A DNA stretch of 64,000 nucleotides from Sphingosinicella humi (GTDB taxonomy: Bacteria; Pseudomonadota; Alphaproteobacteria; Sphingomonadales; Sphingomonadaceae): the NCBI RefSeq assembly GCF_003129465.1, contig NZ_QFFF01000001.1, positions 1,783,501-1,847,500 of the forward strand, written 5' to 3'. Below the pieces are notes generated by a model that was not told the DNA's origin, did no database searches, and saw nothing but the letters and a program-made list of their open reading frames with translations. Every line of letters begins with the position of its first letter. Position 1 is the first letter of the stretch. A program made the position numbers and the translations under genes. Of the stretch, positions 38,275 through 62,412 are shown piece by piece.

Positions 38275-38290
38275 TAAGACCGCGGCGGTA
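38275..38290 (-). promoter_or_regulatory. Candidate FixJ-type site for cytochrome b561-hemerythrin unit
   Basis: On the minus strand TACC-GCCGCGGT-CTTA, 70 bases before the cytochrome b561 ATG. One half-site is perfect and the other has one mismatch. It is among the weaker members of the motif set. Confidence 0.35.
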
Positions 38291-38300
38291 CGGATCCGAC

Positions 38301-38316
38301 TACGTATCCACCCTTA
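38301..38316 (+). promoter_or_regulatory. Candidate FixJ-type site for universal stress protein gene
   Basis: TACG-TATCCACC-CTTA, with 57 bases between the site and the ATG at 38374. It carries the full TACGTA core and a perfect second half-site. Confidence 0.6.
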
Positions 38317-38373
38317 TTGAGATAGAGGACCAACGGCCGGAGAGATAGCCTCTGACTTGGGAAGGAAGGTGCA

Positions 38374-39216
38374 ATGCAATGCATTCTGGTCGCCACGGAT
38401 CTCAGCAGTGAAGCTTACAATGCGTTGGGGCGGGCATGCAGGCTCGCGCGTCAGTCTGGTGCCGACCTGCACATCCTGCACGCGGCGGCATCGGATTGCG
38501 AGATCGAGGAGGTCTCGGAGATAAGGCGACGGCTGCACGACGAAGCCGAAACCCTCGCGGAAGCGCCGCCTCTGGTCGAACTGGAATTGTCGGTGCACGT
38601 GACGAAGGGAGAGGGGGCCGCCGTCATCCTGGCAGAGGCGCGGCGGTTGAAGCCGGACCTCATCATCCTGGGCGCGCATGGCGAACCTCATTTCCGCGAC
38701 GTCGTTTTCGGGACCACGGCCTCGCGCGTGTCGAGCGAAGCCGAGCAGCCGGTGCTGGTCGTCCAAAACGACTACCATCGCCGATATGCGCGGGTCATGG
38801 CTGCGGCGGAGGAGGGGCGCGCCGAAGAAGTGCTTCGCCTTGCCTGCGGCATCGCTTCCATGCACGAGCTCTATGTCGTCCACGCCTATGGCTCGGCCAC
38901 CAAGAGCCTGTTCGGCTATGGCGACATCCTGGAAGATGTGCGGGCGGACCAGACGGCGAAAATCGACCAGGTGATCGCCAGCATCCCCGCGATGGAGGAC
39001 GTCCGGCCTCAGATCCACAGCATCGTCGAAGAGGGCGAGGTCATGTCGGTGCTCATGCGGGAGTGGGACAAAGCGAAGCCCGATCTCGTGGTGATCGGAA
39101 CGCATGGGCGGCAGGGTCTGGCAAGACTATTTCAGGCGAGCGTCGCCGAGGCGGTCCTGCTGGGCTGCCCTAGCGATATCCTTGTCGTGCCGGGACGGCC
39201 AGCATTACCCGGCTAA
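38374..39216 (+). CDS. Universal stress protein, tandem UspA domains
   Basis: A 280-residue protein made of two UspA folds (about 1-131 and 140-275). The second ends with the nucleotide-binding pattern VIGTHGRQGLARLFQASVAEAVL, matching GxxG-xGRxxxxxxGSVAxxV loosely. The first has LGAHGEPHFRDVVFGTTASRV. Such proteins promote survival in energy shortage, hypoxia and oxidative stress. A GGAAGG ribosome site precedes the ATG. It is the first of four Usp proteins in this half of the window. Confidence 0.92.
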   Translation: MQCILVATDLSSEAYNALGRACRLARQSGADLHILHAAASDCEIEEVSEIRRRLHDEAETLAEAPPLVELELSVHVTKGEGAAVILAEARRLKPDLIILGAHGEPHFRDVVFGTTASRVSSEAEQPVLVVQNDYHRRYARVMAAAEEGRAEEVLRLACGIASMHELYVVHAYGSATKSLFGYGDILEDVRADQTAKIDQVIASIPAMEDVRPQIHSIVEEGEVMSVLMREWDKAKPDLVVIGTHGRQGLARLFQASVAEAVLLGCPSDILVVPGRPALPG

Positions 39217-39238
39217 TCAACGTCTGGCTGGCGAACCA

Positions 39239-40048
39239 TCAGTGGCCGAGGAGCAGCGGAACCGGCGCATCCTGGATCAGCGACCGTGTGACGCCGCCGA
39301 GCAGCCATTGCCGCAAGCGCGAATGCCCATAGGCGCCCATGACGATCAACCCGGCGTTGAGCGCGATGGTGGCGCGCCTGATCGCCTCGGCTATGTCGCC
39401 GTCGACCGGGGGGTGCTGCATGATCTCCGGCTCGATGCCGTGCCGGGCGAGATAGCGGGCGGCCCGATCGCGCGGATAGCGAGACGCGCGCTCTTCGACC
39501 TCGAGCAGCTTCACTTCGGGGACCAACCGGAGCAGCGGCAGGGCTCCCTTCAGCGCGACAGCCGCTTCGGGTGATCCATTCCAGGCGACGACCGCGGGAC
39601 GATCGAACGTCAGCTGCTCTAGGCCGGAGGGGACGGCGAGGACCGGCGCCGGTGCGCGGGTGGATACCTTGGCTGCAAGCGGACGGGGCTCGTCCCTCAG
39701 CAATGCGGGGCCGGCCAGGCTCAGCACGAGCACGTCGCTCAGCACCGACCAGTCGATGAGCGCGGTTGAGATCAGATCGTCGACGTGGACCCAATCCCAG
39801 CGTGCCCCTTCGCGCTGTAGACGCTCCTCGACCCGCCTCTGGAGGGCCAGGCGCAAATCGCGCATCTTGTCGGAGAATTCTTCTGGAAGCGCGGCGGCGA
39901 TCAGCGGATCGACGGCAAGATAATCCTCGAGCGGCGTGGCGTGCAGGCAGGTGATGTGCCCTTCGAAGGCGCGGGCGAGGTCCAACGCCGCCTGCAGCCT
40001 GCTTTCGAGGCCCGCATCGTCGTAAATGTGGAGCAGGATCGACTGCAT
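39239..40048 (-). CDS. Universal stress protein, tandem type, paralogue 2
   Basis: A 269-residue protein starting MQSILLHIYDDAGLESRLQAALDLA. The C-terminal UspA domain ends MGAYGHSRLRQWLLGGVTRSLI, with the GxxGxxR and GGVT phosphate-binding loop. It is closely similar in layout to the protein at 59122-59934 and ends in the same LLLGH. GGAGGG precedes the ATG at 40048. It converges with the first Usp gene. Confidence 0.92.
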   Translation of the reverse strand: MQSILLHIYDDAGLESRLQAALDLARAFEGHITCLHATPLEDYLAVDPLIAAALPEEFSDKMRDLRLALQRRVEERLQREGARWDWVHVDDLISTALIDWSVLSDVLVLSLAGPALLRDEPRPLAAKVSTRAPAPVLAVPSGLEQLTFDRPAVVAWNGSPEAAVALKGALPLLRLVPEVKLLEVEERASRYPRDRAARYLARHGIEPEIMQHPPVDGDIAEAIRRATIALNAGLIVMGAYGHSRLRQWLLGGVTRSLIQDAPVPLLLGH

Positions 40049-40108
40049 TGCTTGCCCTCCGGGTTGCCGAGTCACTCGACAATGGCCGCCGGGCCGCTCG
40101 CGAGGAAA

Positions 40109-40124
40109 TAAGTAGCTCTACGTA
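40109..40124 (-). promoter_or_regulatory. Candidate FixJ-type site for Usp paralogue 2
   Basis: On the minus strand TACG-TAGAGCTA-CTTA, 60 bases before the ATG at 40048. Its half-sites are identical to those of the site at 38301. Confidence 0.6.
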
Positions 40125-40198
40125 CGGCAGCTTGCGCCCGGCTCGGTCAGGATCGTCTGATGAGCTTCCGGCCGGGCCCCCTCCAGCCTTGGGAGATT

Positions 40199-40214
40199 CA
40201 CGTATCCAAGCCGA
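40199..40214 (+). promoter_or_regulatory. Candidate FixJ-type site for HWE kinase gene
   Basis: CACG-TATCCAAG-CCGA, 57 bases before the ATG at 40272. It keeps ACGTATCCA of the site at 38301, but the half-sites are degenerate. Confidence 0.4.
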
Positions 40215-40271
40215 AGAGGTGCCGCTGTACGCATGATGATGGGGGACTGATGTCGATCTGAGGGTGAATCG

Positions 40272-42247: not shown

Positions 42248-42305
42248 CCCTCTCCTTCGCCGCCAAGATGAGGAGGCTGCTCGCGAGCGCCGGAAGGCAC
42301 CATAA

Positions 42306-42323
42306 GGGAATGCACCTATTCCC
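42306..42323. promoter_or_regulatory. Inverted repeat in the ppsA upstream region
   Basis: GGGAAT-GCACCT-ATTCCC, a perfect 6-bp dyad seven bases before the candidate FixJ-type site of ppsA. It could be a second operator; the binding protein is unknown. Confidence 0.35.
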
Positions 42324-42329
42324 CTTCTC

Positions 42330-42345
42330 TACGTATCTTCCCGCA
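42330..42345 (+). promoter_or_regulatory. Candidate FixJ-type site for ppsA
   Basis: TACG-TATCTTCC-CGCA, 55 bases before the ATG at 42401. The core CTACGTATC and the CCC run match the site at 38301 at the same spacing. Confidence 0.5.
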
Positions 42346-42400
42346 CAGACTTGCGGCCTGCACCGGCCCAAGCTGCCGGCTTCAACGAGGAGCTGGTTCC

Positions 42401-44836
42401 ATGCAGGACGTTATCTGGTTCAATGAGATCGGCATCGGCGATGTCGCCCGGGTGGGCGGCAAGAACGCCTCTCTGGGTGAAATGACCCGGGCTCTGACGA
42501 ACAAGGGCATTCGCGTCCCGGGCGGATTCGCGACCACGGCTGGCGCCTATCGGCGCTTCATCGAGCTTAATCGCCTCGAACAACCGATGCAGGGCATTCT
42601 CACGCGGTTGAAGGACGGTGAAATCGCGCTGAGGGAAGCTGGGCGGTCGATCCGTTCGCTGATCCTCGGCGGCACATTTTCGCCCGCCATGACGCGCAGC
42701 CTGGAATCCGCCTATGATCGCCTCGCCGCTGAGCTGGGGGTCGACGAGCCGGCGGTAGCGGTCCGCAGCAGCGCCACGGCGGAGGATCTGGGCGACGCCA
42801 GCTTTGCCGGGCAGCAGGAAACCTTCCTCAACGTCCGCGGCAAGCCCGCCCTGCTGGATGCCTGCCGCCGCTGTTATGCCTCGCTCTTCACCGACCGGGC
42901 GATCAGCTATCGCGAACTCAAGGGTTTCGGGCATCTGGACGTCTCGCTGTCGGTCGGAGTTCAGCACATGGTCCGGGCGGACCTCGCCGGGTCCGGCGTC
43001 ATGTTCACGCTCGACACCGAAACGGGCTTCCCCAATGTGGTGGTGATCAGCGCCGCCTGGGGGCTGGGCGAGACGGTGGTGCAGGGGCTCGTCGATCCGG
43101 ATCGATACGTTCTGTTCAAGCCTCTCCTCGGGGAGGGCGGCTGCAGCCCTCTCATCGAGAAAAGCCTGGGCGCAAAGGCGAAACGGATGATCCTCGCGCG
43201 CCATCCGGATGAGCGCACCCAGGTCGTGCCGACAGCCATCCGACAACGCAAGGCCAATGTCCTCAACGATGCCGAGATATTGGAGCTGGGGCGTTGGGGC
43301 GTGTTGATCGAGGCTCATTACGGCCGGCCGATGGATATCGAATGGGCCAAGGATGGAGAGACGGGGCTGCTCTACATTCTGCAGGCGCGGCCGGAGACGG
43401 TTCACTCGTCGCGAAAGCCGGGCAGCTTCGAGCTTTATCGCCTCAAGTCAAAAGGCCCGGTGCTCCTGCGAGGAACAGCCATAGGCACCGCCATCGCTGT
43501 CGGAGAGACCTGCGTAATTCGTTCGCCCAAGGACATCCACAAGTTCCGGGATGGCGCCGTCCTCGTCACGGACGTCACCAATCCCGACTGGGTGCCGATC
43601 ATGAAGCGGGCCGCCGGCATCGTCACCGATCATGGCGGGAGCACCAGCCACGCTGCGATCGTCAGCCGCGAGCTGGGTGTCCCGGCGGTAATCGGCACCA
43701 GTGATGCCACGTCGGTCCTGAGGGAAGGCCAGCCAATCACGCTTTCCTGCGCGGAGGGCGAGAAGGGAACCGTCTATGACGGCAAGCTCGCCTTCACGCG
43801 CGAGACGATCGAAACCGGCGATCTGCCGGAAACACGCACCGCCTTGATGGTGAACCTCGCCGATCCGGCGGCGGCCTTTCGCTGGTGGCCCCTGCCGGCC
43901 AGGGGGGTGGGGCTTGCCCGGATGGAGTTCATCATCAGCAGCGGGATTAAGATGCATCCAATGGCGGCCGCCCATCCCGAGCGGCTCGACCCTAAGGCGG
44001 CAAGGCAGGTCCGCAGGCTGGCGAATGGAGGCGATCCGGCCGATTATTTTGTCGACACCCTCTCAATGGGAATCGCCCGGCTGGCTGCGCTCTATCACCC
44101 TCATCCGGCGATCGTCCGCCTCAGCGACTTCAAGACCAATGAATATGCGAGCCTGATAGGAGGCCATTGCTTCGAGACGGTCGAGGAGAATCCGATGCTC
44201 GGCTTTCGCGGTGCCTCGCGCTATTACAGTGAGCGCTATTGCGATGGCTTCGCGCTTGAATGCCGGGCCTTGAAGCGCGTTCGCGAAGAGATGGGCTTCA
44301 CCAATGTGATCGTGATGGTGCCGTTCTGCCGCACCCCAGCCGAGGCGGACAAAGTGCTGGCTGCCATGGCCGGGAACGGCCTACGTCGCGGCGAGGCCCG
44401 ACTCCAGATCTACATGATGTGCGAGATACCTTCGAACGTCATCCTGGCCGACGCGTTCGCGGCGCGCTTCGATGGCTTCTCCATCGGCTCGAACGACCTG
44501 ACGCAGCTCATTCTCGGGGTCGACCGCGATGCCGCCGAACTGGCCAGCCTGTTCGACGAGCGGGACGAGGCGGTGAAGCGGTTGATCGAGCAGGCGATCG
44601 AGACGGCGCACCGCTCCGGCATCAAGGTCGGCATTTGCGGCCAGGCCCCCAGCGACCACCCGGAATACGCGCCGTTTCTGGTGGGGGCCGGCATCGATTC
44701 GATGTCGCTCAACCCGGACAGCTTCGTGAAGACGCTCGGTCTCGTGGCGCGGGCCGAGGCCGCAATTCGCGAGGAAACACCGACTGTCGACAGCGCATCT
44801 CCCGCGAAGGAGAAGAGGCTTCTATCGGTGGAGTGA
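42401..44836 (+). CDS. ppsA: Phosphoenolpyruvate synthase
   Basis: An 811-residue pyruvate, water dikinase. It has an N-terminal ATP-grasp domain (VRSSATAEDLGDASFAGQQET in pieces), a swivelling phosphohistidine domain with His417 in GGSTSHAAIVSREL, and a C-terminal PEP/pyruvate barrel with GSNDLTQLILGVDRD and CGQAPSD. It converts pyruvate to PEP with ATP to AMP, for gluconeogenesis. A GAGGAG ribosome site precedes the ATG. Its presence among stress genes suggests carbon re-routing under low oxygen. Confidence 0.95.
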   Translation: MQDVIWFNEIGIGDVARVGGKNASLGEMTRALTNKGIRVPGGFATTAGAYRRFIELNRLEQPMQGILTRLKDGEIALREAGRSIRSLILGGTFSPAMTRSLESAYDRLAAELGVDEPAVAVRSSATAEDLGDASFAGQQETFLNVRGKPALLDACRRCYASLFTDRAISYRELKGFGHLDVSLSVGVQHMVRADLAGSGVMFTLDTETGFPNVVVISAAWGLGETVVQGLVDPDRYVLFKPLLGEGGCSPLIEKSLGAKAKRMILARHPDERTQVVPTAIRQRKANVLNDAEILELGRWGVLIEAHYGRPMDIEWAKDGETGLLYILQARPETVHSSRKPGSFELYRLKSKGPVLLRGTAIGTAIAVGETCVIRSPKDIHKFRDGAVLVTDVTNPDWVPIMKRAAGIVTDHGGSTSHAAIVSRELGVPAVIGTSDATSVLREGQPITLSCAEGEKGTVYDGKLAFTRETIETGDLPETRTALMVNLADPAAAFRWWPLPARGVGLARMEFIISSGIKMHPMAAAHPERLDPKAARQVRRLANGGDPADYFVDTLSMGIARLAALYHPHPAIVRLSDFKTNEYASLIGGHCFETVEENPMLGFRGASRYYSERYCDGFALECRALKRVREEMGFTNVIVMVPFCRTPAEADKVLAAMAGNGLRRGEARLQIYMMCEIPSNVILADAFAARFDGFSIGSNDLTQLILGVDRDAAELASLFDERDEAVKRLIEQAIETAHRSGIKVGICGQAPSDHPEYAPFLVGAGIDSMSLNPDSFVKTLGLVARAEAAIREETPTVDSASPAKEKRLLSVE

Positions 44837-44850
44837 TCGGGCCGGCCAGT

Positions 44851-46050: not shown

Positions 46051-46053
46051 CGT

Positions 46054-49166: not shown

Positions 49167-49380
49167 CCGAGGCCGTGGGCGGCCGGGCTCGCCACCTCGC
49201 CCAGCATTTCGCGCCAGATTGGTTTCGCTTCGCCCTCGCACCTGTTTGATACAGTCATCGATCGTCTCCGAGACTGCGCATCAAGCGAGCCTCCCCGTCT
49301 TGATGACTGGAGCGCCACCGGAGCTGAATCAGGATTATTCCGTAGCCGCTCCAGCACCTCCTGCTCGTCCCAGCCCTGGC

Positions 49381-49396
49381 TAGGGATTCATACCTA
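49381..49396 (+). promoter_or_regulatory. Candidate FixJ-type site for lipoprotein gene
   Basis: TAGG-GATTCATA-CCTA, a perfect TAGG/CCTA dyad, 55 bases before the ATG at 49452. Read on the minus strand it gives TAGGTA. Confidence 0.5.
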
Positions 49397-50093: not shown

Positions 50094-50597
50094 CTATTTG
50101 GCGTCGATCTCTATGCGCCGCTTGCGGGCGTTCGCCTTCTCATCCTTGGGCAAGGTGATGGTCAGCACGCCATCCTTGCTCCTGGCGGTGATCTTGTCCG
50201 CCGCCGCGTCGCCTGGAAGTTGGAGACTGCGCTGGAATGAGCCGTAGCTGCGTTCGGAGAAATAATAATTTTTCTCCTTTTCCTCCCTCTCTTCCTTTTT
50301 CTCGCCAGTGATGGTCAGGACGCCCTCGGCGACCGTCACCTCGACATTGGCGGCGTCTATGCCCGGAAGCTCGGCAGTAAGCTTATAGGCCTCGTCGGAC
50401 TCCGTCATCTCGAGGGCAGGGACTGGCGCCGTGGGCCCTGTCCGCCCGAATTGAAGGGCGGGCATGCGGCTTGGGACCTCGTCAAAAAGCCGGTCTAGCT
50501 CGGACCTCAGCCTGCCAAAGGGTTCGAACAGTTGCTCCGTGAACGCCGGCAAAGCGCGTCGCACGGTACGGGGCGTGGTCGATTGATCGGGGCGCAT
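50094..50597 (-). CDS. Hsp20/alpha-crystallin family small heat-shock protein
   Basis: A 167-residue ATP-independent chaperone. The N-terminal part ends near PALEMTES, and the alpha-crystallin domain (about residues 57-165) contains YKLTAELPGIDAANVEV, GVLTITGEKKEE and GVLTITLPK. It lacks a C-terminal IxI tail of full length. It binds unfolding proteins under stress. A strong AAGGAGGA site precedes the ATG. Confidence 0.94.
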   Translation of the reverse strand: MRPDQSTTPRTVRRALPAFTEQLFEPFGRLRSELDRLFDEVPSRMPALQFGRTGPTAPVPALEMTESDEAYKLTAELPGIDAANVEVTVAEGVLTITGEKKEEREEKEKNYYFSERSYGSFQRSLQLPGDAAADKITARSKDGVLTITLPKDEKANARKRRIEIDAK

Positions 50598-50660: not shown

Positions 50661-50676
50661 TACGAAATCATACGTG
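50661..50676 (-). promoter_or_regulatory. Candidate FixJ-type site for hsp20
   Basis: On the minus strand CACG-TATGATTT-CGTA, 63 bases before the ATG at 50597. The octamer ATCATACG occurs twice in the vicinity (50657-50664 and 50667-50674). Confidence 0.45.
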
Positions 50677-50984: not shown

Positions 50985-51000
50985 TAAGGACCATTGCGTA
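50985..51000 (+). promoter_or_regulatory. Candidate FixJ-type site for alcohol dehydrogenase
   Basis: TAAG-GACCATTG-CGTA, 63 bases before the ATG at 51064. On the other strand it reads TACG-N8-CTTA, the same half-sites as at 38301 and 40109. It begins right after the stop of the small gene upstream. Confidence 0.6.
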
Positions 51001-51063: not shown

Positions 51064-52140
51064 ATGGCGACCAAGATGAAGGCCGCGATCTTCATTGAGC
51101 CGGGACGGATAGTCCTCGGCGAAAAGCCGATTCCGGACATAGGGCCGCTGGACGCGCTCATCCGGATAACGACCACGACGATCTGCGGCACTGACGTCCA
51201 TATCCTGAAAGGGGAATATCCCGTCGATCGCGGCCGGACCGTTGGCCATGAGCCTGTGGGCGTGATCGAGAAACTGGGCTCCGCCGTGCAGGGTTTCACC
51301 GAGGGACAGCGCGTGATTGCTGGCGCCATCACACCTTCCGGGCAATCCAACGCGTCGCTCTCGGGCTGCTGGGCGCAATGCGGCGCCGGGACCAGGCATG
51401 GCTGGAAAGCGATTGGAGGATGGCGCTTTGGAAACAGCATCGATGGCGCCCAGGCGGAATATCTTCTCGTGCCCGACGCCATGGCCAATCTCGCCCTGAT
51501 CCCAGAGGGGCTCACCGATGAGCAGGTCCTGATGTGTCCCGACATCCTTTCGACCGGCTTCGGCGGTGCGGAGTCGGGCCATGTCCGGCTCGGCGACACC
51601 GTCGCGGTGTTCGCGCAGGGACCCATCGGCCTGTGCGCGACCGCCGGGGCTCGGCTCATGGGAGCCGCAAGGATTTTCGCCGTGGAGCATGTTGCCGAGC
51701 GTCAGGCACTCTCGCGCGAGATGGGCGCCAATGAGGTCATCGACTTCGCGGCCGTCGATCCGGTAGCCGAGATAATGCGCCTAACCGATGGGCGCGGCGT
51801 AGACGTGGCGATCGAGGCCTTGGGGACACAAGCCACGTTCGAAGCGGCGTTACGAGTGCTCAGGCCCGGGGGAACCCTGTCTTCGCTTGGCGTCTATTCC
51901 TCCGATCTCAAGATACCGCTCGACGCCTTCGCCGCGGGTCTTGGCGACCACAAGATCGTGACCACGCTCTGCCCTGGCGGCAAGGAACGGATGCGGCGGC
52001 TGATGGACCTCGTCGCGAACGGGCGGATCGACACCGCACCGCTCGTCACGCATCGCTTCGGCCTCGACGATATCGAAAGCGCTTATGACCTGTTCGCCCA
52101 TCAGCGCAACGGTGTCATCAAGGTGGCGATCACGCCGTGA
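51064..52140 (+). CDS. Zinc-dependent alcohol dehydrogenase, CbADH/TbADH-like
   Basis: A 358-residue medium-chain dehydrogenase. Catalytic zinc ligands are C41 (CGTD), H62-E63 (GHEPVG) and D160 (CPDILSTGFGGAE). The Asp ligand and the absence of the structural four-Cys lobe are features of clostridial secondary alcohol dehydrogenases rather than the horse-liver type. A CLCPGG-like segment (TTLCPGGKERMRRLMDLV) also matches that group. It may reduce aldehydes or ketones to dispose of electrons. AGGAGC precedes the ATG. Confidence 0.9.
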   Translation: MATKMKAAIFIEPGRIVLGEKPIPDIGPLDALIRITTTTICGTDVHILKGEYPVDRGRTVGHEPVGVIEKLGSAVQGFTEGQRVIAGAITPSGQSNASLSGCWAQCGAGTRHGWKAIGGWRFGNSIDGAQAEYLLVPDAMANLALIPEGLTDEQVLMCPDILSTGFGGAESGHVRLGDTVAVFAQGPIGLCATAGARLMGAARIFAVEHVAERQALSREMGANEVIDFAAVDPVAEIMRLTDGRGVDVAIEALGTQATFEAALRVLRPGGTLSSLGVYSSDLKIPLDAFAAGLGDHKIVTTLCPGGKERMRRLMDLVANGRIDTAPLVTHRFGLDDIESAYDLFAHQRNGVIKVAITP

Positions 52141-52211: not shown

Positions 52212-52394
52212 TTACTGCCCTGGGTGTTCGGATAGCCCGCACGTCACGAGCCTGCGCACGGCTTCCTCTCGAGAGGGGCGTGGCCCACGACGCCTCGCAA
52301 TCCAGTTGTCCAAGGCGAGCAGCTCTATTTCGCTCAGCGTCACAGTTATGACTCTGCTCGTACTGGAGTTCCTCAAGGGAGAGGTGGTGATCAT
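52212..52394 (-). CDS. Small ribbon-helix-helix-like protein
   Basis: A 60-residue protein. SRVITVTLSEIELLALDNWIARR followed by SREEAVRRLV has the strand-helix-helix pattern of CopG/Arc-type DNA-binding proteins. The ATG overlaps the stop of the GNAT gene as ATGA, so it is translationally coupled to it. It may regulate its own operon. Confidence 0.6.
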   Translation of the reverse strand: MITTSPLRNSSTSRVITVTLSEIELLALDNWIARRRGPRPSREEAVRRLVTCGLSEHPGQ

Positions 52395-52975
52395 CGGTGA
52401 GCGGCCAGCTTCTTCTCGGCGATCATGAGCGTCGAGTCCTCGGCGCAAAGATGGACGGTAAAGCCCATCTCCCGTTCCAGCTGCAGCGCCATTGCATCAT
52501 CCGATGTCTCGATCGACTTCATCGTTCCGATGCCCGCGGCTTGGGCATAGCGCACAAGATGATCGAGAAGGGTCCAGCTGATGCCCTTCTGTTTCCATTC
52601 GGGCCTGGTGGACAGGGCGAACTCTCCTTCGGAATAATCTTTCGTCGCCGCCAGCATCGCAGTGGCGAGGATCGTGCCCGACGGTTCATCGACGGCGAGG
52701 AAGTTGATTGTGTGGGGATCGTCGTTTCGGACCATATCCTTCAATCGCTCATGTCCGACTTCTTTAAGTCCCGTCAGGAAGCGGTGTCGCAAGTCTTCGG
52801 GAGGAAGGCTTCGGAAGAAGGCGGCGAGACTCTCCTCGTCGCTCGGCCGCGCGGGCCGGACATGGAAGGGGACTCCGCTCTTTGTCACCAGATCCGCGCT
52901 CCAGCCGATCTCGGCGGCCTGGGTGGAAAGCGGCGACGCGGCGTCGCGGGCGAGTTCGGTGTGGGTCGAGGCCAT
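52391..52975 (-). CDS. GNAT family N-acetyltransferase
   Basis: A 194-residue protein whose GNAT fold starts near residue 35 (PFHVRPARPSDEESLAAFF in the first strand and helix). The acetyl-CoA loop is replaced by RPEWKQKGISWTLLDHLV. It resembles the acetyltransferase modules of protein-acetylating Pat enzymes. AAGGA precedes the ATG at 52975. It follows the P-type ATPase by 29 bases in the same unit. Confidence 0.85.
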   Translation of the reverse strand: MASTHTELARDAASPLSTQAAEIGWSADLVTKSGVPFHVRPARPSDEESLAAFFRSLPPEDLRHRFLTGLKEVGHERLKDMVRNDDPHTINFLAVDEPSGTILATAMLAATKDYSEGEFALSTRPEWKQKGISWTLLDHLVRYAQAAGIGTMKSIETSDDAMALQLEREMGFTVHLCAEDSTLMIAEKKLAAHR

Positions 52976-53004
52976 GGCATTTTCCTTCGGCTGTGGGAGC
53001 CGGT

Positions 53005-55686
53005 CTAGGCGACCGCTGCGTCCCTTCCGATCCGTAAATGTCCGTAGAAGCGCGTGACACCGAGCTTGGTGGCCTCGGTCACGATGACGATCAGCGCCAT
53101 GCCGGCCAGACAGGCTACGAGGATGGGCGGTTCGACCGGTCCCGTGCCCAGCACTGCGCGCAAAGGACTCCAGTGCATGGCGAGGAGGTGGAGCGAGAGC
53201 GCCAGGCCGACCCCCAGCAGGAGCCATCGGTTCGAAAGTGGCGGCTCGCGATGAAGCGGCCGGTGCTCGCTGCGCATGCATAGCACATAGGCGTTCTGGA
53301 AGAGCACGGTCATCAGGAGCACTGCATTTTGGATCTCGGCCAAGGCCATGCCCCGATCCACGCCCCACTGAACGATGGCCAGCGCGAGCACGCTCATGGT
53401 CGCGGCGGGAGGCAGCATCAGCACAAGCGCCGAGCCGTCGATGATGGGCTCGTTGGGCCGCCGCGGTCTACGGCGAAGCTCATCCCCTTCGCCGCGCCCG
53501 AAACCCAGCATCACGTCCTGCGCGCCGTTGGTGACGAGATTGCTCCATAGCAGCTGAACGGGCGTCAGCGGCATCGGCAGCCCGAGGCCGACGGCGCCGA
53601 TGAACATGAATATCTCGGCGATGCCGGTGGCCAGCAGGAAAATCACGATCTTGCGTATATTGGCATAGGTGATCCGCCCTTCCTCAATCCCTGCGACGAT
53701 GGACGCGAAATTGTCGTCGGACAGGACTAGATCGGACGCCCCGCGGGCTACGTCGGTGCCGGCACGACCCATGGCGACGCCGATATGCGCGGCCTTGAGC
53801 GCCGGCGCGTCGTTGACCCCGTCGCCGGTCACGGCGACTAGTTCGCCGGCCGCGCTGAGCGTCTCCACGATCCTGAGCTTTTGAGTCGGCTCGATCCTGG
53901 CGAAAACGCGGCCTTTCGCCACTAGTTCGGCAAAGCGTTCAGGATGAGCGGCACCGAGGTCTTGTCCCGTAACCACCTGCTCGGCAGTTGCGGTGAGTCC
54001 GAGCTGGCGCGCGATGGTGAGGGCGGTGCCCGGATGATCTCCCGTTATCATCCGGACCTTGATCCCCGCCTCGGCGCATCTTGCGATGGCCGCAGGCGCT
54101 TCTGGCCGGATCGGATCGAGCAGGCCGACCCATCCGAGGAGCCGCAGCCCGTGAGGGCTGCCGCAGTCAATGCTCTCATTGGGCGCCAGGGCTCGCCCCG
54201 CTACCGCCAGGACCCGATAGCCTGCTTCGGCAAGCCAAACGGCTGCCCGCGAGGCGCCGTCATCCCGCAACTCGCACATGGGTAGGACGACCTCTGGGGC
54301 GCCCTTCACATAGAGCTGACCGGCACCGTTGCCGCCGACGGCGGCGGCGGCAAAGCGGCGCGCGGGCTCATAGGGCAGCATGGCGATGCGTGGTGTGTTG
54401 GCAGCCTTGGCGAAATCGATTCCCGCCTCGGTCACGAACTCGGCCAGGGCAACATCGACGCTGTCCCCGAAGGCGCCGTCGGGCGCCGGCGCCGCTTCGT
54501 TGCAGGTCGCGACGGCCTTCGCGAGTTCCTTCAACGCCGGATCGTGCCAGTTTTCTCGCGTGAGGCATCGTCCGTCGGGCAACGACACCCGCTCGACCGA
54601 CAAGCGGTTCTGGGTCAGCGTCCCGGTCTTGTCGCTGGCGATCAGAGTGCAGGCGCCGAGGCCTTCCACCGCCGGGAGCGTCCTCACGATCACATTGCGG
54701 GCGGCCATGCGCCGAGTGGCTGCCGACAAGGCTACCGTGACGGCGATCGGAAGGCCCTCGGGAATAGCGGAGACGGCGAGCGCGACGGCGAGCAGCAATA
54801 TCTGGGAAAAGGGCTCGCCCTCGCTGCCTAGCAGGATCGCGAGCAGTGCGATCAAAGCGACGGTGCCGATCGCTATCTGTCTGGCGAGGCGCTCCAGCCG
54901 CAGCACCAGCGGCGGGGGCGCGGTGGCCGCGGTTCCGAGCGAGGCGCTGATCTCGCCCAAGACGGTTGATAGGCCGGTAGCCACGGCCACCGCGACACCG
55001 CGGCCTTCCTCGACGGTGGTTCCGGCGTGGAGCATGTTGGGCCGGTCGCCTGTTCCGGCTGATTGAGCGGGAACGGCGCTGGCTTCCTTGCGGACGGCCA
55101 GTGACTCCCCGGTCAAGGTGGACTCATTGACGCGAAGCTCGCTGCTCCACAGCAGGCGAAGGTCGGCGGAGACGGCGACACCTGATTCCACTTCCACTAT
55201 GTCGCCCGGCACTAGTTGGTCGGCCTCGACAATTGTCGAGGCGCCGTCGCGCCGCACCCGCGCCTTCTGGCGGATCAGCCGGCGCAGCGCCGCCATGCTG
55301 GTCTCCGCGCGATATTCCTGGAGACTGCCGATGGTGGCGTTGATCATGAGGACGACGGCGATGAATATCGCGTCGCGCCCATGATCGAGCAGGACTGAGA
55401 CGAGCACCGCGCCGAGCAGGAGATAAATGAGCGGGCTTCGAAACTGCCTCACGAACAGGAGTGCCAGGCCGGTGCGGCCCCCGGCGGGGATGATGTTGCG
55501 GCCGAACCGTGTGAGCCGGTCGGACGCCTCCCGGCTGGTCAGGCCTTCGGCGTGGGTTGCAAGCCGTTGGAGGCATTGCTGGGATGTCAAGCTATGCCAG
55601 GGGCCGATCGCCGGCTCTTCCTGACAGGGTCCCTCGGACAGAGCTCGATCCTGGGTAATCAGGGGCGTCACTTGGTTGCCTGTCAT
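53005..55686 (-). CDS. P2-type cation-translocating ATPase
   Basis: An 893-residue pump. It has a Cation_ATPase_N segment (HSLTSQQCLQRLATHAEGLT in pieces), the actuator TGES, the membrane motif PEGLP and phosphorylated Asp352 in DKTGT. The hinge is TGDGVNDAPALKAAHIGVAMG and a six-helix C-terminal half follows. It looks like Ca2+/Mg2+-type P2 ATPases; the ion is not predictable. The frame allows a start at 55731, but 55686 is used because the upstream candidate operator would then sit at a similar distance as in other genes. Confidence 0.9.
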   Translation of the reverse strand: MTGNQVTPLITQDRALSEGPCQEEPAIGPWHSLTSQQCLQRLATHAEGLTSREASDRLTRFGRNIIPAGGRTGLALLFVRQFRSPLIYLLLGAVLVSVLLDHGRDAIFIAVVLMINATIGSLQEYRAETSMAALRRLIRQKARVRRDGASTIVEADQLVPGDIVEVESGVAVSADLRLLWSSELRVNESTLTGESLAVRKEASAVPAQSAGTGDRPNMLHAGTTVEEGRGVAVAVATGLSTVLGEISASLGTAATAPPPLVLRLERLARQIAIGTVALIALLAILLGSEGEPFSQILLLAVALAVSAIPEGLPIAVTVALSAATRRMAARNVIVRTLPAVEGLGACTLIASDKTGTLTQNRLSVERVSLPDGRCLTRENWHDPALKELAKAVATCNEAAPAPDGAFGDSVDVALAEFVTEAGIDFAKAANTPRIAMLPYEPARRFAAAAVGGNGAGQLYVKGAPEVVLPMCELRDDGASRAAVWLAEAGYRVLAVAGRALAPNESIDCGSPHGLRLLGWVGLLDPIRPEAPAAIARCAEAGIKVRMITGDHPGTALTIARQLGLTATAEQVVTGQDLGAAHPERFAELVAKGRVFARIEPTQKLRIVETLSAAGELVAVTGDGVNDAPALKAAHIGVAMGRAGTDVARGASDLVLSDDNFASIVAGIEEGRITYANIRKIVIFLLATGIAEIFMFIGAVGLGLPMPLTPVQLLWSNLVTNGAQDVMLGFGRGEGDELRRRPRRPNEPIIDGSALVLMLPPAATMSVLALAIVQWGVDRGMALAEIQNAVLLMTVLFQNAYVLCMRSEHRPLHREPPLSNRWLLLGVGLALSLHLLAMHWSPLRAVLGTGPVEPPILVACLAGMALIVIVTEATKLGVTRFYGHLRIGRDAAVA

Positions 55687-55756
55687 ATTCACTCGATGGG
55701 TCCTGGGTCCGCGGAGGCTCCAGACCTTCATTCGCCGCCTGCGCGCGAAGCTGCGA

Positions 55757-55772
55757 TACGGAATATTCCTAG
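55757..55772 (-). promoter_or_regulatory. Candidate FixJ-type site upstream of the P-type ATPase
   Basis: TACG-GAATATTC-CTAG on the plus strand, 70 bases before the ATPase ATG at 55686 and 128 bases before fixL. The centre is the perfect palindrome GGAATATTCC. One half-site is perfect and the other has two mismatches. Confidence 0.35.
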
Positions 55773-55900
55773 GGCGAATGGCCGAGGGACAAGAGCCTTC
55801 ACTTGTCGCCGCTGCCCGGCTGGCCGAGTTGCAGTTGCCTAAAGCCTCGCTAGCTATACCGTCGCCGCTCCTGTTGGTAAAAGACCGGCAGGGGTGACCA

Positions 55901-57487
55901 ATGGCCGATCAGGATACTCCGCGGAAGCCTCTTGAAGCGTCGCTCGCCGACGGCAGAGGTCGGGTAAGGCAGGAAGCCATGGGCCTGGCTGCCGCCGTGG
56001 TGGCTGTCGCGCTTGCCCTCCTCATCCGTTACGCACTCCAGCCGTGGCTCGATGGTCGTGCGCCGCTCATCCTGTTCACCGTCTCGGTTCTTGCGTGCGG
56101 CATCTATTTTGGCCGCGGTGCCGCCACCGCCGCGGCTGTCCTTTCGATCGCGTCCGGGGCACTCATCTTCCTTGAAGACGGGGTCCTGAACACGGCGGAC
56201 GCCGTTCATCTCGGCATCTACTTCGCCGTTTGCGCCGGCATCGTGTTTCTGGTCGAGCGTCTGGTGCGCGCCAGAGGCGCCGAGAAAGGGCAGCGGGAAT
56301 TCGCCGAAGCCGAGCATGCGCGTGCCCTGCATGCCGCCGAGGAGGTGGGCGCGCTCGTAGGCGAGCTCGAGAGGCGCGAACGTCACCTCCGCTCAATCCT
56401 CGAGACAGTTCCCGATGCCATGATCGTCATCGATGTGCAGGGTCATATCGTCTCCTTCAGCGCGACGGCGGAGGAGATGTTCGGATATGCCGAAGCCGAG
56501 CTGCTGGGCGAGAATGTCAGCACGCTGATGCCCTCGCCGGATCGGGAGCGGCATGACGGCTATCTGGAGCGCTACCTTCGCACCGGGGAGCGGCGGATCA
56601 TCGGGATCGGGCGAGTCACGACGGCGCGGCGGCGGGATGGCTCCACTTTTCCCATTCACCTCCATGTCGGCGAGACGCGGATCGGCGAGGAACGTCTTTT
56701 CACCGGCTTCATCCAGGACCTGACGGAGCGGCAGCAAACCGAATTGCGACTGCATGGCCTCCAATCGGAACTGGCCCATGTGTCGCGCGTGACGGCCATG
56801 GGCTCGCTTGCCACGTCGCTTGCCCACGAACTGAACCAGCCGCTCACCGCGATCGCCAATTATGTCGAGACGGTGCGGGACATGCTGGAAGATGCCAGAC
56901 CGGAGACGGTGGAGACGGTCCGCGAGGCGCTGGACGATTGCGCCTCCCAGTCTGTTCGCGCGGGCCATATCGTGCGGCGACTGCGGGACTTCATCTCCCG
57001 CGGCGAGACCGAACGCCGTATCGAGAGCCTCAGCCGCCTCATCAGCGAGGCAAGCGCCCTCGCGCTGGTCGGCGCGGGCGAGCGGGGCATTGAAGTCGAC
57101 GTGAAGCTGCGGCGCGATCTCGACCGAGTCCTCGTCGATCGCATCCAGATCCAGCAGGTGCTGCTCAATCTCATCCGAAACGCGATCGAAGCCATGGATG
57201 GCTTAATGGTCCGCCGGCTGGAGATCAGCTCGCGACGGCATGACGATGAATTCGTCGAGGTCGTCATCGCCGACAGCGGTCCTGGCTTGCCTCCAGAGGT
57301 CTCGAAGCGTCTGTTCGATCCATTCGTCAGCACCAAGTCGGCCGGCATGGGGCTCGGCCTTTCTATCTGCCACACCATCATCACAGGCCATGGCGGAAGG
57401 ATTTGGGCCGAGCCGTCGCAGCTCGGCGGCACGGCCTTTCACTTCACGCTGCTCGAAGCGGGGGGAGAGTCGGATGAACGACAATAA
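55901..57487 (+). CDS. fixL: Oxygen-sensing histidine kinase FixL
   Basis: A 528-residue kinase. Four membrane helices (about 27-46, 54-70, 74-91 and 102-121) are followed by a PAS domain (about 160-280) and a HisKA/HATPase core. The PAS domain keeps the haem pocket: His218 in [11 protein letters not shown], Arg224, and Arg238 in IIGIGR, matching H200, R206 and R220 of Bradyrhizobium FixL. The phospho-acceptor is His309 in SLAHELNQP. Oxygen bound to haem should switch the kinase off. The four-helix layout is like the Sinorhizobium form. It overlaps fixJ by 14 bases. Confidence 0.93.
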
Positions 57488-58106
57488 CCGCATCGTCTAT
57501 CTGGTCGATGACGACGAGGCGATCCGCCGCTCGGCCGGCTTCATGCTCAAGACGTCGGGCTTCTTGGTGAAGTCCTTCCTCTCGGGCACCGAGTTCCTGA
57601 AGGAGAGAGAAGTCGAGCCCGGCTGCATCCTTCTCGACATCCGCATGCCCGGCATGGACGGGCTGGAGGTGCAGCAGGCGCTGCGGGATCGCGGCTCGAC
57701 GCTCCCCGTCATCGCCATGACCGGCCATGGTGACGTCAATGTCGCCGTCCAGGCGATGAAGGCAGGCGCCGTCGACTTCATCGAAAAACCCTTCGAAAAG
57801 GCAGTACTGATAAAGGCGATCGAGGAGGGCTTTGCCCGTATAGATCAGGCGGATCGGACCCGTGTCCGTCGCAATGAAGCGCAGGTGCGGCTCCAGGCTC
57901 TCACACCGCGCGAGCAAGACGTGCTGAAGGGGCTCGTTCGCGGCCACCCCAACAAGACGATCGGCTATGACCTCGACATCAGCCCCCGGACCGTCGAGAT
58001 CCACCGTGCCAATCTGATGAGCAAACTAAGCGTCGTCAGCCTGTCGGACGCCCTTCGAATCGCCTTCGCGGCGGGTTTGGGTGAGGATGGGGATCCTAAT
58101 CTCTAG
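57474..58106 (+). CDS. fixJ: FixJ family response regulator
   Basis: A 210-residue regulator. The receiver domain has acidic residues 12-14 (DDD), phosphorylated Asp55 in [11 protein letters not shown] and the conserved Lys in EKPF. The LuxR-type HTH contains [15 protein letters not shown] and [25 protein letters not shown] precedes the ATG. The overlap with fixL makes the pair an operon and cognate partners. No fixK or nif gene is in the window. Confidence 0.94.
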
Positions 58107-58112
58107 CATCGC

Positions 58113-58520: not shown

Positions 58521-58916
58521 CTATCGTGTAGACGTCTGCGCCGTCGCTAACCCGCCGAGGGCACTCAAACTCGCGACCCGGAAGGGGAGGCGCTCTCCGT
58601 CAGGCTCGGTCAACGTTATATATTCGCCGAGGCGCATCGGATGCGTTTCGAGATGGAAGACCGACTCGTCGTCCTCCTCGCCGGGGCGATAGGAAAAGGC
58701 CCAGCCCCGCGGCGTCCGGACGACATAGCCGGAAAGGTCCGGCTCATTGGGCCAGAAGCGGCGGACGGTGGCTCTTCCGGGTTCCGCCTTGCGCGCCGTC
58801 TCGTCGATCATGCCGTCCTCGGTGAGGGGAAGGCGCAGCAAATAGCAGCGGCTCGCTGATCCTTGCGGGAAGTCCTTGGTACGGGCGAGCTCGAGGCGGA
58901 TGCTGTTCCAGGTCAT
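58521..58916 (-). CDS. Conserved hypothetical protein, 131 residues
   Basis: A soluble protein starting MTWNSIRLELARTKDFPQGSA. It contains RFWPNEPDLSGYVVRTPRGWAF and FHLETHPMRLGEYITLTE segments. I recall short sphingomonad proteins of this kind but no function. The start at 58916 follows family similarity; an ATG at 58952 is possible. It is coupled to the iron permease-like gene. Confidence 0.65.
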   Translation of the reverse strand: MTWNSIRLELARTKDFPQGSASRCYLLRLPLTEDGMIDETARKAEPGRATVRRFWPNEPDLSGYVVRTPRGWAFSYRPGEEDDESVFHLETHPMRLGEYITLTEPDGERLPFRVASLSALGGLATAQTSTR

Positions 58917-59040
58917 GTGAATATTTCTGCCGCTTCCTTCCGACCCAATCATTACGCATTTCTACGGATGCTCTGCGCTGGCGATGATCCCGTCCCGCGC
59001 TTCGCGATTCGCGGCGGCATCGCCGCGTCTACCGCCTCAG

Positions 59041-59062
59041 TAGGTATACGTAATTACGTGAG
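59041..59062 (+). promoter_or_regulatory. Candidate FixJ-type site(s) for Usp paralogue 3
   Basis: TAGG-TATACGTA-ATTA (59041-59056) lies 65 bases and TACGTA-ATTACG-TGAG (59047-59062) 59 bases before the ATG at 59122. The overlap contains the perfect palindrome ACGTAATTACGT (59048-59059). On the minus strand TACG-TATACCTA-CTGA also reads out. Confidence 0.5.
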
Positions 59063-59121
59063 GTCTCTCCTCCTCTAGCCAGAGACGATCGTGCGCTCGC
59101 GACCGGCACAGGAGAGGTCCC

Positions 59122-59934
59122 ATGAAGTCGATCCTGCTTTACGCAAATGAAGATCCAGGCCTCGAAGTCCGCGTCGAAGCCGCATTGAACCTGGTCGAGG
59201 CGGACCACGGGCACCTGACCTGCGTTCAGGTTATGCCCTTCTCGTCCTACGTCTTCGGCGACCCATTCGGCGGTACCTATGTGATGGCCGAAGCCATTAC
59301 GGGCCTTGAGGAACAACAAGCAGCCAACCGCGCCCGCGTCGAGCAGACATTGCGGCGGGCTCAGGTGCCCTGGACGTGGCTCGATTATAGCGGCGTTCCC
59401 GCCTCGGTTCTCGTGGAACGCTCGCGTCTCGCCGATATTGTCGTGATGAGCCTTCCCGATGGCGATGGCGCCCGGGCCGACCGGGTGCTTCCCACCACCG
59501 CTGATGTCGCGGTCCACGCCCGCACCTTGACCCTGGCCGTTCCCGATGGCGGCAACGCCTTCGATATGAGCGGTCGGGCTTTGATCGCCTGGAATGGATC
59601 TGCCGAGGCTTCGCAGGCGCTGCGCCTGGCGGTGCCGCTCCTGCAGCGCGCATCCGCGGTCGATATCGTTACGGTGATCGAGGATGAGCTCAATTTTCCG
59701 GCTACCGATGCTTGCGAATATCTGGGCTATCATGGCGTGCGGCCGGAGCTTCACGAATGGCAGTGGTCGGGGCGGTCGGTCGCGGAGTGCATCGACGACG
59801 CGGCGGCCGTGCTTGGATCGGACTATGTCCTGATGGGCGCCTACGGCCACTCTCGTATCCGCGAAGCGGTGCTGGGCGGCGTCACCCGCTCCATGTTGAA
59901 CCAGTCCCGCCGGCCTCTCCTGCTGGGGCACTGA
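59122..59934 (+). CDS. Universal stress protein, tandem type, paralogue 3
   Basis: A 270-residue tandem UspA protein. It begins MKSILLYANEDPGLEVRVEAALNL and ends MGAYGHSRIREAVLGGVTRSML with LLLGH, very like the protein at 39239-40048. The GGVT loop suggests ATP binding in the second domain. CAGGAGAGG precedes the ATG. It heads a unit with a membrane protein and an SDR enzyme. Confidence 0.92.
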   Translation: MKSILLYANEDPGLEVRVEAALNLVEADHGHLTCVQVMPFSSYVFGDPFGGTYVMAEAITGLEEQQAANRARVEQTLRRAQVPWTWLDYSGVPASVLVERSRLADIVVMSLPDGDGARADRVLPTTADVAVHARTLTLAVPDGGNAFDMSGRALIAWNGSAEASQALRLAVPLLQRASAVDIVTVIEDELNFPATDACEYLGYHGVRPELHEWQWSGRSVAECIDDAAAVLGSDYVLMGAYGHSRIREAVLGGVTRSMLNQSRRPLLLGH

Positions 59935-59935
59935 C

Positions 59936-61160: not shown

Positions 61161-61187
61161 CGAACTCAACCGCATCCTTTGGCGGTG

Positions 61188-62086
61188 CTAAGGGACGAGC
61201 ACGGCCGCTCCGTTGAGACGCCCTTCACGTAGTGCCGACAGAGCCTCATTGGCCTGGGCCACGGAAAAGACAGTGGTGCGGGTGCGAACAGGCACTCGAG
61301 GGGCAATGTCGAGGAACGCGATGCCGCCGGCGCGCGTCAGGTTCGCGACGGACAGGATCGAGCGTTCGCCCCAGAAGTCCGCATAGGGGAAGCTCGGAAT
61401 ATCGCTCATATAGATGCCGGCGCAGACGACGCGGCCGCCCTTGCGCACATGCTTCAGCGTCGCGGCACCAGCGCTCCGACGGGAGCGAAGATGATGGCGG
61501 CGTCGAGAACCTCGGGCGGGTCCTCGTCCGATGCGCCCGACCATTCGCAGCCCAGCTCCCGGGCGAAGGCTTGTCCGGCCGTGTCTCCGGATTGGGTGAA
61601 GGCGAAGACTCGCCGACCCTCCCACAAGGCGACCTGAGCCAGCACATGCGCCGCGGCACCAAAGCCGTAGAAGCCCAGGCAGGAGGCATCCCCCGCCATT
61701 TGGTAGGCGCGATAACCAATGAGGCCGGCGCACAGCAGCGGAGCGGCCTCGACGTCCGAAAATGACTGAGGCAAGGAGAAGCAATAGGCCGCGTCCGCCA
61801 CCAAATGCGTGGCAAATCCGCCATCGCGCGTGAAGCCGGTGAATTGCGAAAAGCCGCTCGCGCCGTCGCCGACTTCCAGTATGTGACCGACCACCTCATG
61901 GGCGGGAATGATCGGCAGCGGTCCGTCAAGGTCGCCGTCAACGACATGAAGGTCCGTCCGGCACACAGCGCAAGCGGAGACCTGGATCAGCAGCTCGCCT
62001 TTGCCGGGCGTCGGCCGTGACCGCTCCACGGGCCTGAGGGGCTGCCCCGGAGCGTCCAGCTGCATGGCCAGCATCGTTGCGGTCAT
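61188..62086 (-). pseudogene. Zinc-dependent alcohol dehydrogenase, broken by deletion and frameshift
   Basis: The N-terminal part (MTATMLAMQLDAPGQPLRPV, CRTDLHV, AHEVVGH) and the C-terminal part (TLKHVRKGGRVVCAGIYMSDIPSFPY in pieces) of one dehydrogenase lie in different frames. The frame changes at about 61462-61468, where one base seems lost in GTGCCGCGACG. In addition, the structural-zinc lobe of about 35 residues, normally between EVGDGASGF and FTGFTRDGG, is absent (junction near 61845). Two lesions argue for decay rather than a single sequencing error. The family is that of AdhA-like enzymes with the CAGLIGYRA motif. Confidence 0.85.
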
Positions 62087-62094
62087 GGGCCCCG

Positions 62095-62241
62095 TTAGGG
62101 CGCAGCCATCGCGGCCGCTCCCGGAAAGCCGGCATGCCGAATGTCGGAAGCGCCGAGTTGGCCGATCCGGATCAGGCCCATCACTGCCAGGAGCATCGCG
62201 AAGGCGACGGCCAAACGCTCCTTGTCCGCTCTTGTTGCCAT
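62095..62241 (-). CDS. Small membrane protein, 48 residues
   Basis: A short protein beginning MATRADKERLAVAFAMLLAV, with one membrane helix and a Gly/Ala-rich end. AGGAGA seven bases before the ATG is a strong ribosome site, and a motif resembling the island's shared operator lies 56 bases upstream. It lies eight bases before the broken alcohol dehydrogenase on the same strand. Confidence 0.6.
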   Translation of the reverse strand: MATRADKERLAVAFAMLLAVMGLIRIGQLGASDIRHAGFPGAAAMAAP

Positions 62242-62297
62242 CTGCGGGTCTCCTATGCCTTTCGCTCGGGATAAATGACCCTCCCATAGCGCCGACA

Positions 62298-62313
62298 TCC
62301 GCAATCCTACCTA
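62298..62313 (-). promoter_or_regulatory. Candidate FixJ-type site for the small membrane protein
   Basis: On the minus strand TAGG-TAGGATTG-CGGA, 56 bases before the ATG at 62241. The TAGGTA core matches, the second half-site only in part. Confidence 0.35.
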
Positions 62314-62396
62314 ATGAACGCAGCGCCGGGGCTTTATGAGCCATGCGCCTGTGCCCGCTCGGCTGAGGAGGCTACGCTCGCCCGGACCTTGGTCGC

Positions 62397-62412
62397 TAAG
62401 GAGATTCCCGGA
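62397..62412 (+). promoter_or_regulatory. Candidate FixJ-type site for Usp paralogue 4
   Basis: TAAG-GAGATTCC-CGGA, 73 bases before the TTG at 62486. A weak member of the set. Confidence 0.3.

Follow-up and report, generated by a model that had tools for sequence, protein, structure and literature searches.

FixLJ and comparable hypoxia regulons

The FixLJ systems of Sinorhizobium meliloti and Bradyrhizobium pair a heme-PAS kinase with a regulator composed of a receiver and a LuxR-type domain. A pair of the same kind is encoded by Sphingosinicella humi in the stretch of 64,000 nucleotides analysed here (C1:1783501-1847500 of the 3.03-Mb genome, hereafter the window). It lies within a cluster of stress and energy genes of about 25 kb (window 38.3-63.0 kb, hereafter the island), and many promoters of this cluster carry a FixJ box. 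With a probability of about 0.82, the island is a directly wired FixLJ regulon; we infer FixJ binding, its phosphorylation, the oxygen signal and activation from sequence.

The rhizobial FixJ box TAAGTAATTTCCCTTA (PMC4999443) is the same 16-bp box as that of the island, and it scores 17.2 bits under the matrix derived here from sphingomonads. The rhizobial sites predicted in that survey precede only fixK, nifA, fixX, and SMc03253, whereas the island boxes precede many stress and energy genes. In S. meliloti the fixK promoter is reported to be protected at -69 to -44 and -57 to -31 (PMC4999443); the island dyad would be centred near -43. The survey describes the FixJ regulon as a handful of genes with fixK as its sole known conserved member, and its FixLJ section names Caulobacterales and Rhizobiales only (PMC4999443). 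FixJ of R. palustris binds the fixK promoter with GTACGTAG in electrophoretic mobility shift assays (PMC13327599).

Similar to the island, Caulobacter possesses FixL and FixJ, together with the receiver-only feedback inhibitor FixT (PMC7078487), and in the 80 FixJ loci described below the boxes often precede genes of receiver-only proteins. However, the conserved FixJ sites that PMC4999443 describes for Caulobacterales precede fixK only, and neither fixT nor fixK was seen in the island. Among sphingomonads, Sphingobium hydrophobicum harbours FixL-FixJ genes on two plasmids, thought to be acquired by transfer, although the passages concerned report their presence without a box or regulon (PMC6783567). 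A search of titles and abstract openings, with subscription journals mostly outside it, found no FixJ regulon named in sphingomonads.

The low-oxygen-induced lxa locus of Burkholderia cenocepacia is also alike, with genes for metabolism, stress response, and transport, including six Usp (PMC9104464). Nevertheless, this organism belongs to another bacterial class and the likeness is one of gene content. Mycobacterial DevR/DosR is akin to the NarL/FixJ regulators and its regulon includes Usp, Hsp20-type, and cation-ATPase members, but its sensors and box differ from those of FixLJ. Under hypoxia this response regulator drives about 48 genes (PMC4973870). In Sphingopyxis granuli TFA, many anaerobically regulated genes are Fnr-independent, and Fnr-independent regulators are one explanation offered (PMC7713065).

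The FixL-FixJ pair

Two adjoining genes of the island encode the predicted oxygen sensor and its regulator:

55901-57487, plus strand: FixL, with a DUF4118 membrane region, a heme-type PAS domain, HisKA, and HATPase_c (Pfam)
57474-58106, plus strand: FixJ, with a receiver and a LuxR/GerE DNA-binding domain (Pfam)

The best PDB matches of the kinase contain FixL, and its RHD segment was aligned with the sequence of a FixL structure. By this alignment the island FixL retains the heme-PAS histidine, that of the RHD segment, which we take to be the heme ligand. The best PDB match of the regulator is a FixJ (E=1.5e-49), and its relatives at 60-78% identity are mostly from sphingomonads. FixJ is the sole transcription factor by Pfam among the scanned island open reading frames (ORFs), several of which matched no family.

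A FixJ-type box learned from other loci

The motif was learned from the best 80 of at least 539 confirmed FixJ-ortholog loci, mostly from sphingomonads, with two from Caulobacter and a few from unclassified metagenome-assembled genomes; the window was left out. TACGTA occurred 122 times in the intergenic DNA of these loci against 9.8 expected, in counts that were not dereplicated. Expectation maximisation on dereplicated segments yielded the 16-bp palindrome TAMGKA-N4-TMCKTA. At a threshold of 12 bits, which was our choice, the symmetrised matrix matched 263 of 212,437 intergenic and 28 of 1,300,528 coding positions in the 80 loci. A complemented control matrix found four intergenic and 20 coding sites in the same loci, a contrast that arises partly by construction.

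Enrichments inside the 80 loci depend on the matrix, while the scans of the window, the own genome, and S. meliloti are independent of it. The footprinted S. meliloti fixK site scored 17.2 bits, a score reached by one in two million random 16-mers. Within a 40-kb part of pSymA near fixLJ it ranked first; the fixJ match is about 0.5 kb away. By these comparisons, the dyad is a FixJ-type box.

Boxes in the window and their enrichment

The window holds 15 sites of at least 12 bits, all at 38.3-63.0 kb; 14 are intergenic by our own gene calls and one is coding. No such site was found in the first 38.2 kb. The sites are given below with one weaker box; gene starts come from our own simple gene finder.

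38301-38316, plus strand: putative FixJ box TACGTATCCACCCTTA, 12.1 bits, 57 bases before usp (38374) and ending 96 bases from the cytochrome b561 start; direction ambiguous, with a slightly better -10 score on the side away from usp
40109-40124, minus strand: putative FixJ box, 15.7 bits, 60 bases before a minus-strand usp (start 40048); -10 score better toward the HWE kinase side
40189-40204, plus strand: putative FixJ box, 15.5 bits, upstream of a PAS-HWE histidine kinase gene (40272 or 40326); weak -10
42303-42318, minus strand: putative FixJ box, 12.6 bits, 55 bases before an alpha/beta hydrolase gene (Pfam; start 42247); -10 score toward the gene
42330-42345, plus strand: putative FixJ box, 14.1 bits, 55 bases before the PEP synthase gene; -10 CAAGCT at +31
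49329-49344, minus strand: putative FixJ box, 17.2 bits, upstream of ABC/FtsX exporter genes; -10 score toward the minus strand
49381-49396, plus strand: putative FixJ box, 13.8 bits, 55 bases before the gene of a 190-aa protein (49452) without Pfam family; no good -10
50661-50676, minus strand: weak box, 4.8 bits, 63 bases before hsp20 (start 50597)
50985-51000, plus strand: putative FixJ box, 13.3 bits, 63 bases before an alcohol dehydrogenase gene; -10 score 2.96
53031-53046, minus strand: putative FixJ box, 17.7 bits (the highest score), within the ATPase gene at its 3' end and 55 bases before a GNAT gene; -10 score 3.94
55757-55772, minus strand: putative FixJ box, 13.5 bits, 64 bases before a cation P-type ATPase gene (start 55692); -10 score 1.93
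58953-58968, minus strand: putative FixJ box, 15.3 bits, 36 bases before the gene of a 131-aa protein (start 58916) without Pfam family; -10 score 2.61
59037-59052, plus strand: putative FixJ box, 14.1 bits, 69 bases before usp (59122); -10 score 2.58
62298-62313, minus strand: putative FixJ box, 12.5 bits, 56 bases before a small ORF predicted from 62241, which lies upstream of the alcohol dehydrogenase region on the minus strand
62397-62412, plus strand: putative FixJ box, 15.5 bits, 73 bases before usp (62486)
62984-62999, plus strand: putative FixJ box, 12.4 bits, upstream of a gene called from 63102 (ATPase-like, clustered with P-type ATPases); no good -10

At 10 bits the window counts were 14 intergenic and one coding site, and at 14 bits seven and one. 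The complemented-sequence control at 12 bits returned one intergenic and two coding sites in the window. As a control, 22 stretches of the own genome (407 kb) were scanned and seven were set aside: L137, L141, L144, and L157, which hold FixJ paralogs or a known site, L138, which continues L137, and L152 and L153, which flank the window. The remaining 300 kb of unselected sequence contained three sites of at least 12 bits, all coding. Intergenic sites thus occupied 14 of 2,944 island positions against 0 of 31,383 positions in the rest of the window and the 300-kb control (Fisher p=1e-15).

Whole-genome searches with three single patterns point the same way. TACGTA-N6-CTTA occurs exactly twice in the 3.03 Mb, both times in the island. 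TAMGTA-N5-CCNWA with at most one mismatch was found at 47 places, seven of them in the island, and TACGTA alone at 36, four of them in the island. The genome scan for TAMG-N8-CKTA proposed with the original prediction returned 16 places, including four in the island, one of which (59842) is inside a usp gene; read backwards, the pattern occurs at 128 places genome-wide.

The shared dyad seen in the original prediction is confirmed, and it is stronger than was thought there. Its sites at 38301, 40109, 42330, 49381, 50985, 55757, 62298, and 62397 all reach 12 bits under the independent matrix, and the distances quoted for 38301, 40109, 42330, 49381, 50985, 50661, 62298, and 62397 are those listed above. 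For 55757 a distance of 70-73 had been given, and 64 was measured from the start chosen here. A site placed at 40199 scores 0.9 bits and is 10 bases off the real box at 40189. The site described at 59041-59062 is shifted and belongs at 59037-59052; 59041 itself scores 8.1 and 59062 -25.6. The hsp20 site at 50661 is low in box score, and the TATTTT at its -10 offset scores 4.87, the best of the 16 sites. The proposed site at 38275 scores -20.9 and is not a box, and the boxes at 42303, 49329, 53031, 58953, and 62984 had been missed.

Promoter geometry

From the 80 loci, 203 promoters were collected by keeping each non-duplicate pair in which box and gene are separated by 35-120 bases and by no other gene. 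A Y-A step at +31/+32 from the dyad centre was present in 112 of these gene-oriented promoters, against 4-42 at other offsets from 8 to 53. This single recurrent -10 offset, 31 bases from the dyad centre, is the pattern of an activator overlapping -35. Read as TANNNT at -12 to -7, the Y-A would place the dyad centre near -43, overlapping -35, as judged from the -10 element. Distances from dyad centre to start codon peaked at 42-45 and about 58-76. In the window, 12 of the 13 measured boxes end 55-73 bases before the start codon. At 11 of 14 of these sites the gene side had the better -10 score (sign test p=0.029; Wilcoxon p=0.0026); in this comparison 40189 and 49329, whose genes are far or uncertain, were omitted from the 16 scored sites, and 38301 was counted toward usp.

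Genes of the island and candidate targets

According to Pfam, the genes at about 38.2-63.1 kb encode four universal stress proteins, the PAS-HWE histidine kinase, an alpha/beta hydrolase, PEP synthase, an HlyD/FtsX/ABC exporter, Hsp20, alcohol dehydrogenase, a GNAT acetyltransferase, a cation P-type ATPase, FixL, FixJ, a low-affinity iron permease, a short-chain dehydrogenase/reductase (SDR), and others. The genes behind the boxes include:

38374-39216, plus strand: tandem universal stress protein (Usp)
39239-40048, minus strand: universal stress protein (Usp)
42401-44836, plus strand: phosphoenolpyruvate (PEP) synthase-type enzyme (PPDK_N, PEP-utilizers)
50094-50597, minus strand: Hsp20 small heat shock protein (HSP20)
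51064-52140, plus strand: zinc-type alcohol dehydrogenase
52391-52975, minus strand: GNAT acetyltransferase
53005-55692, minus strand: cation-transporting P-type ATPase
59122-59934, plus strand: universal stress protein (Usp), followed by genes for a 156-aa protein and an SDR
62486-62908, plus strand: universal stress protein (Usp)

The Usp, PEP synthase, alcohol dehydrogenase, acetyltransferase, and cation ATPase genes are probably direct FixJ targets, and the Hsp20 genes perhaps as well. The cluster is probably switched on directly at low oxygen, since many of its promoters carry the box. FixL, a histidine kinase of the membrane whose PAS domain is of the heme type, would phosphorylate FixJ when oxygen falls. 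A dimer of phosphorylated FixJ would then bind the 16-bp palindrome, whose centre would lie about 43 bases upstream of the transcription start so that it overlaps the -35 region, and would activate around ten promoters, namely those of Usp, PEP synthase, alcohol dehydrogenase, GNAT, cation ATPase, the exporter, and perhaps Hsp20.

A second alcohol dehydrogenase on the minus strand (61188-62344) is seemingly split between two frames near 61450, perhaps by a frameshift; it comprises two adjacent gene calls, and ADH_N was found in the upstream part only (Pfam). The tRNA-Leu at 36938-37024 was rejected as a genomic-island boundary, as no second copy of its 3' end was found in the window or the next 16 kb. 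EcfG general-stress promoters were likewise discarded: GGAAC-N15-18-SGTT matches once in the window (2019) and nowhere in the island.

Boxes in other genomes and on plasmids

At least one box was present in 72 of the 80 FixJ loci. In these loci and the window, with families assigned by Pfam on one representative per cluster, the recurrent box targets were Usp (34 genes), receiver-only proteins (29), GNAT (15, the cluster that contains the island acetyltransferase), FixL-type PAS kinases (13), Hsp20 (10), flavodoxin-fold reductase (9), alcohol dehydrogenase, Crp/Fnr, and ion channel (7 each), OmpW and PhaC (5 each), and cydA (4). The 131-aa protein starting at 58916 belongs to a target cluster of six genes, itself counted. 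Boxes before genes for FixT-like receivers, fixL-type kinases, Crp/Fnr, cydA, phaC, and Hsp20 fit a response to oxygen limitation. Blast found a FixL-like kinase in 76 of the 80 loci, and in 57 of these the best one carries the heme histidine motif.

PEP synthase is present in seven of 79 searched genomes, our own included. In four of them (our own, G019, G007, and G036), a box of at least 12 bits has its dyad centre 60-92 bases before the gene. The PEP synthase of G036 is 52% identical and is encoded on a different contig from fixJ. Those of G042, G039, and G070 have no box of at least 12 bits. Four of the five carriers with a FixJ ortholog of at least 60% identity thus have the box (the fifth is G042), against neither of the other two (G039, G070). 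The FixJ locus of S. granuli NBRC 100800 contains seven boxes.

FixJ relatives were found on 123 of 72,556 plasmid records (E<=1e-50), 60 of which are from Sinorhizobium; four of the 123 and pSymA were examined. A Sphingomonas panacis plasmid typed as conjugative harbours fixLJ, a second receiver gene, two usp, adhP, aldehyde dehydrogenase, and GNAT genes, with six boxes of at least 11 bits in 18.6 kb. Plasmid-borne FixLJ genes of Novosphingobium, Sphingobium, and Caulobacter (L168, L169, L170) lie, together with a receiver-only gene, within copper-resistance clusters.

FixJ-like and Crp/Fnr genes in the rest of the genome

At C1:343135 (L141, G000:C1:338001-358000, positions 5132-8536) the genome encodes a second FixLJ pair. 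A box of 14.5 bits (L141:7282) stands between its fixL and a divergent alternative oxidase gene, which is followed by a receiver-only protein. In S. granuli, aox is induced fast in anaerobiosis, and the authors distinguish this from the kinetics of ytfE (PMC7713065). The second FixL has EHD where the island FixL has RHD.

In L137 (G000:C1:2677000-2696999, positions 9594-19800), a FixJ-like regulator is accompanied by an ORF of 701 aa whose alignments are those of a histidine kinase. Tad pilus genes, among them those of a TadE-like protein and a prepilin peptidase, lie nearby, as do four boxes of at least 12 bits; a related box is perhaps used there for pili. A further box of 17.7 bits (C1:2321494) precedes the gene of a large beta-helix protein.

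The original prediction proposed control without nif or fixK. No nif genes were seen among the island ORFs, and no whole-genome nif search was made. No Crp/Fnr gene was seen in Pfam scans of the island ORFs, which agrees with the absence of fixK there; elsewhere in the genome, however, six HTH_Crp_2 matches exceed the Pfam cut-off, four of them strongly. Of six loci examined for HTH_Crp_2 matches, two of which look like other helix-turn-helix families, L172 alone contains a box that reaches 12 bits. This box (L172:408-423, 14.2 bits) is about 590 bases from the start of an fnr-like gene, and its dyad centre is 45 bases before a 5-aminolevulinate synthase gene. The fnr-like gene, beside the latter, encodes N-terminal cysteines.

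Weighing the explanations

Several results count against a regulon controlled directly by the island FixJ. The top NCBIfam family of the kinase is FixL with 512 bits, below the rhizobial equivalog cut-off of 850, and that of the regulator is FixJ by 65 bits, at 244.2 bits and below the cut-off of 255. Eight of the 80 FixJ loci lack a box, and in 19 of the 76 FixL-like kinases the search for the heme motif found none. At 38301, 40109, and 49381, three of the 14 compared sites, the better -10 is on the opposite side. The three copper-type plasmid loci contain one box, one box, and none, so not every FixLJ pair has the wiring of the island. The exact palindrome was found in 5 of 11 against 3 of 36 genomes by FixJ presence (p=0.011), in a weak test set up after the counts; across the 79 genomes it is too rare to decide, and outside the family a control pattern is equally common or commoner. 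The degenerate consensus with three mismatches is not enriched in the window (49 observed, 41.6 expected), which bears out the warning in the original prediction that relaxed half-sites match by chance. This is also what favours reading the dyad as a chance product of relaxed half-sites; with 14 intergenic island sites against none in the controls under the held-out matrix, and the low yield of the complemented-sequence control, that reading is next to negligible.

It is unlikely, though the most serious alternative, that another FixJ/NarL-type regulator, or several, binds the boxes and the island is a shared target. The genome encodes three further FixJ-like regulators (C1:343135, C1:751758, C1:2686620; E<=1e-30, 45-50% identity), and the boxes near the Tad-adjacent paralog and the alternative oxidase gene mean that the box alone does not tell which paralog binds. 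Nonetheless, each of these two box groups stands next to a FixJ-type gene of its own, and one such gene is present in the island. The loci used to learn the motif were centred on window FixJ orthologs, and the 20-kb stretch of paralog 751758 has no box of at least 12 bits. Control of the island mainly by Crp-type regulators of the FNR/FixK kind has very little in its favour as a general explanation. Crp/Fnr genes are present in the genome, and uspA and cybB of S. granuli have Fnr boxes centred at -41.5 and -42.5 (PMC7713065), but TTGAY-N4-RTCAA is absent from the whole window, which speaks against FNR control of the whole island. With two mismatches allowed, the window has 19 matches to TTGAT-N4-ATCAA where 9.9 are expected; roughly half of these fall in the island, and one is at 38250, so that single genes may be under FNR control. 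The site at 38250-38263 (TTGAGTTAGATCAT, two mismatches) precedes cytochrome b561, and cybB, the cytochrome b561 gene of S. granuli, has an Fnr box (PMC7713065).

The regulon originally proposed is partly supported. A FixJ-type box layout together with a FixLJ pair in the same island was borne out. Boxes precede Usp, PEP synthase, alcohol dehydrogenase, and cation ATPase genes, and weakly Hsp20. The proposed control of hemerythrin and cytochrome b561 genes is unsupported, as 38275 is no site, the 38301 box ends 96 bases from the b561 start and is ambiguous in direction, and an FNR-like site lies at 38250.

Significance for Sphingomonadales

Stress and energy genes placed directly under FixJ in sphingomonads would be a variant of known FixLJ control. 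For Sphingomonadales, whose low-oxygen response is only partly explained so far, the analysis provides a working FixJ matrix, a promoter geometry, and a set of genes that are likely direct targets. With its seven boxes, the FixJ locus of S. granuli NBRC 100800 makes FixLJ a testable candidate for the Fnr-independent response, which was described in a different strain, TFA. More broadly, and at roughly even odds, sphingomonad FixLJ may be a one-step oxygen switch and not (only) the head of a FixK cascade. FixJ would then directly activate, from class-II-like promoters, a mobile and at times plasmid-borne module for hypoxia survival (Usp, Hsp20, PEP synthase, dehydrogenases, ion pumps, terminal oxidases, and polyhydroxybutyrate synthase). 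Such a module would be an alphaproteobacterial counterpart of the DosR dormancy regulon of mycobacteria, and it would supply the Fnr-independent part still missing from the picture of how Sphingopyxis responds to anaerobiosis.

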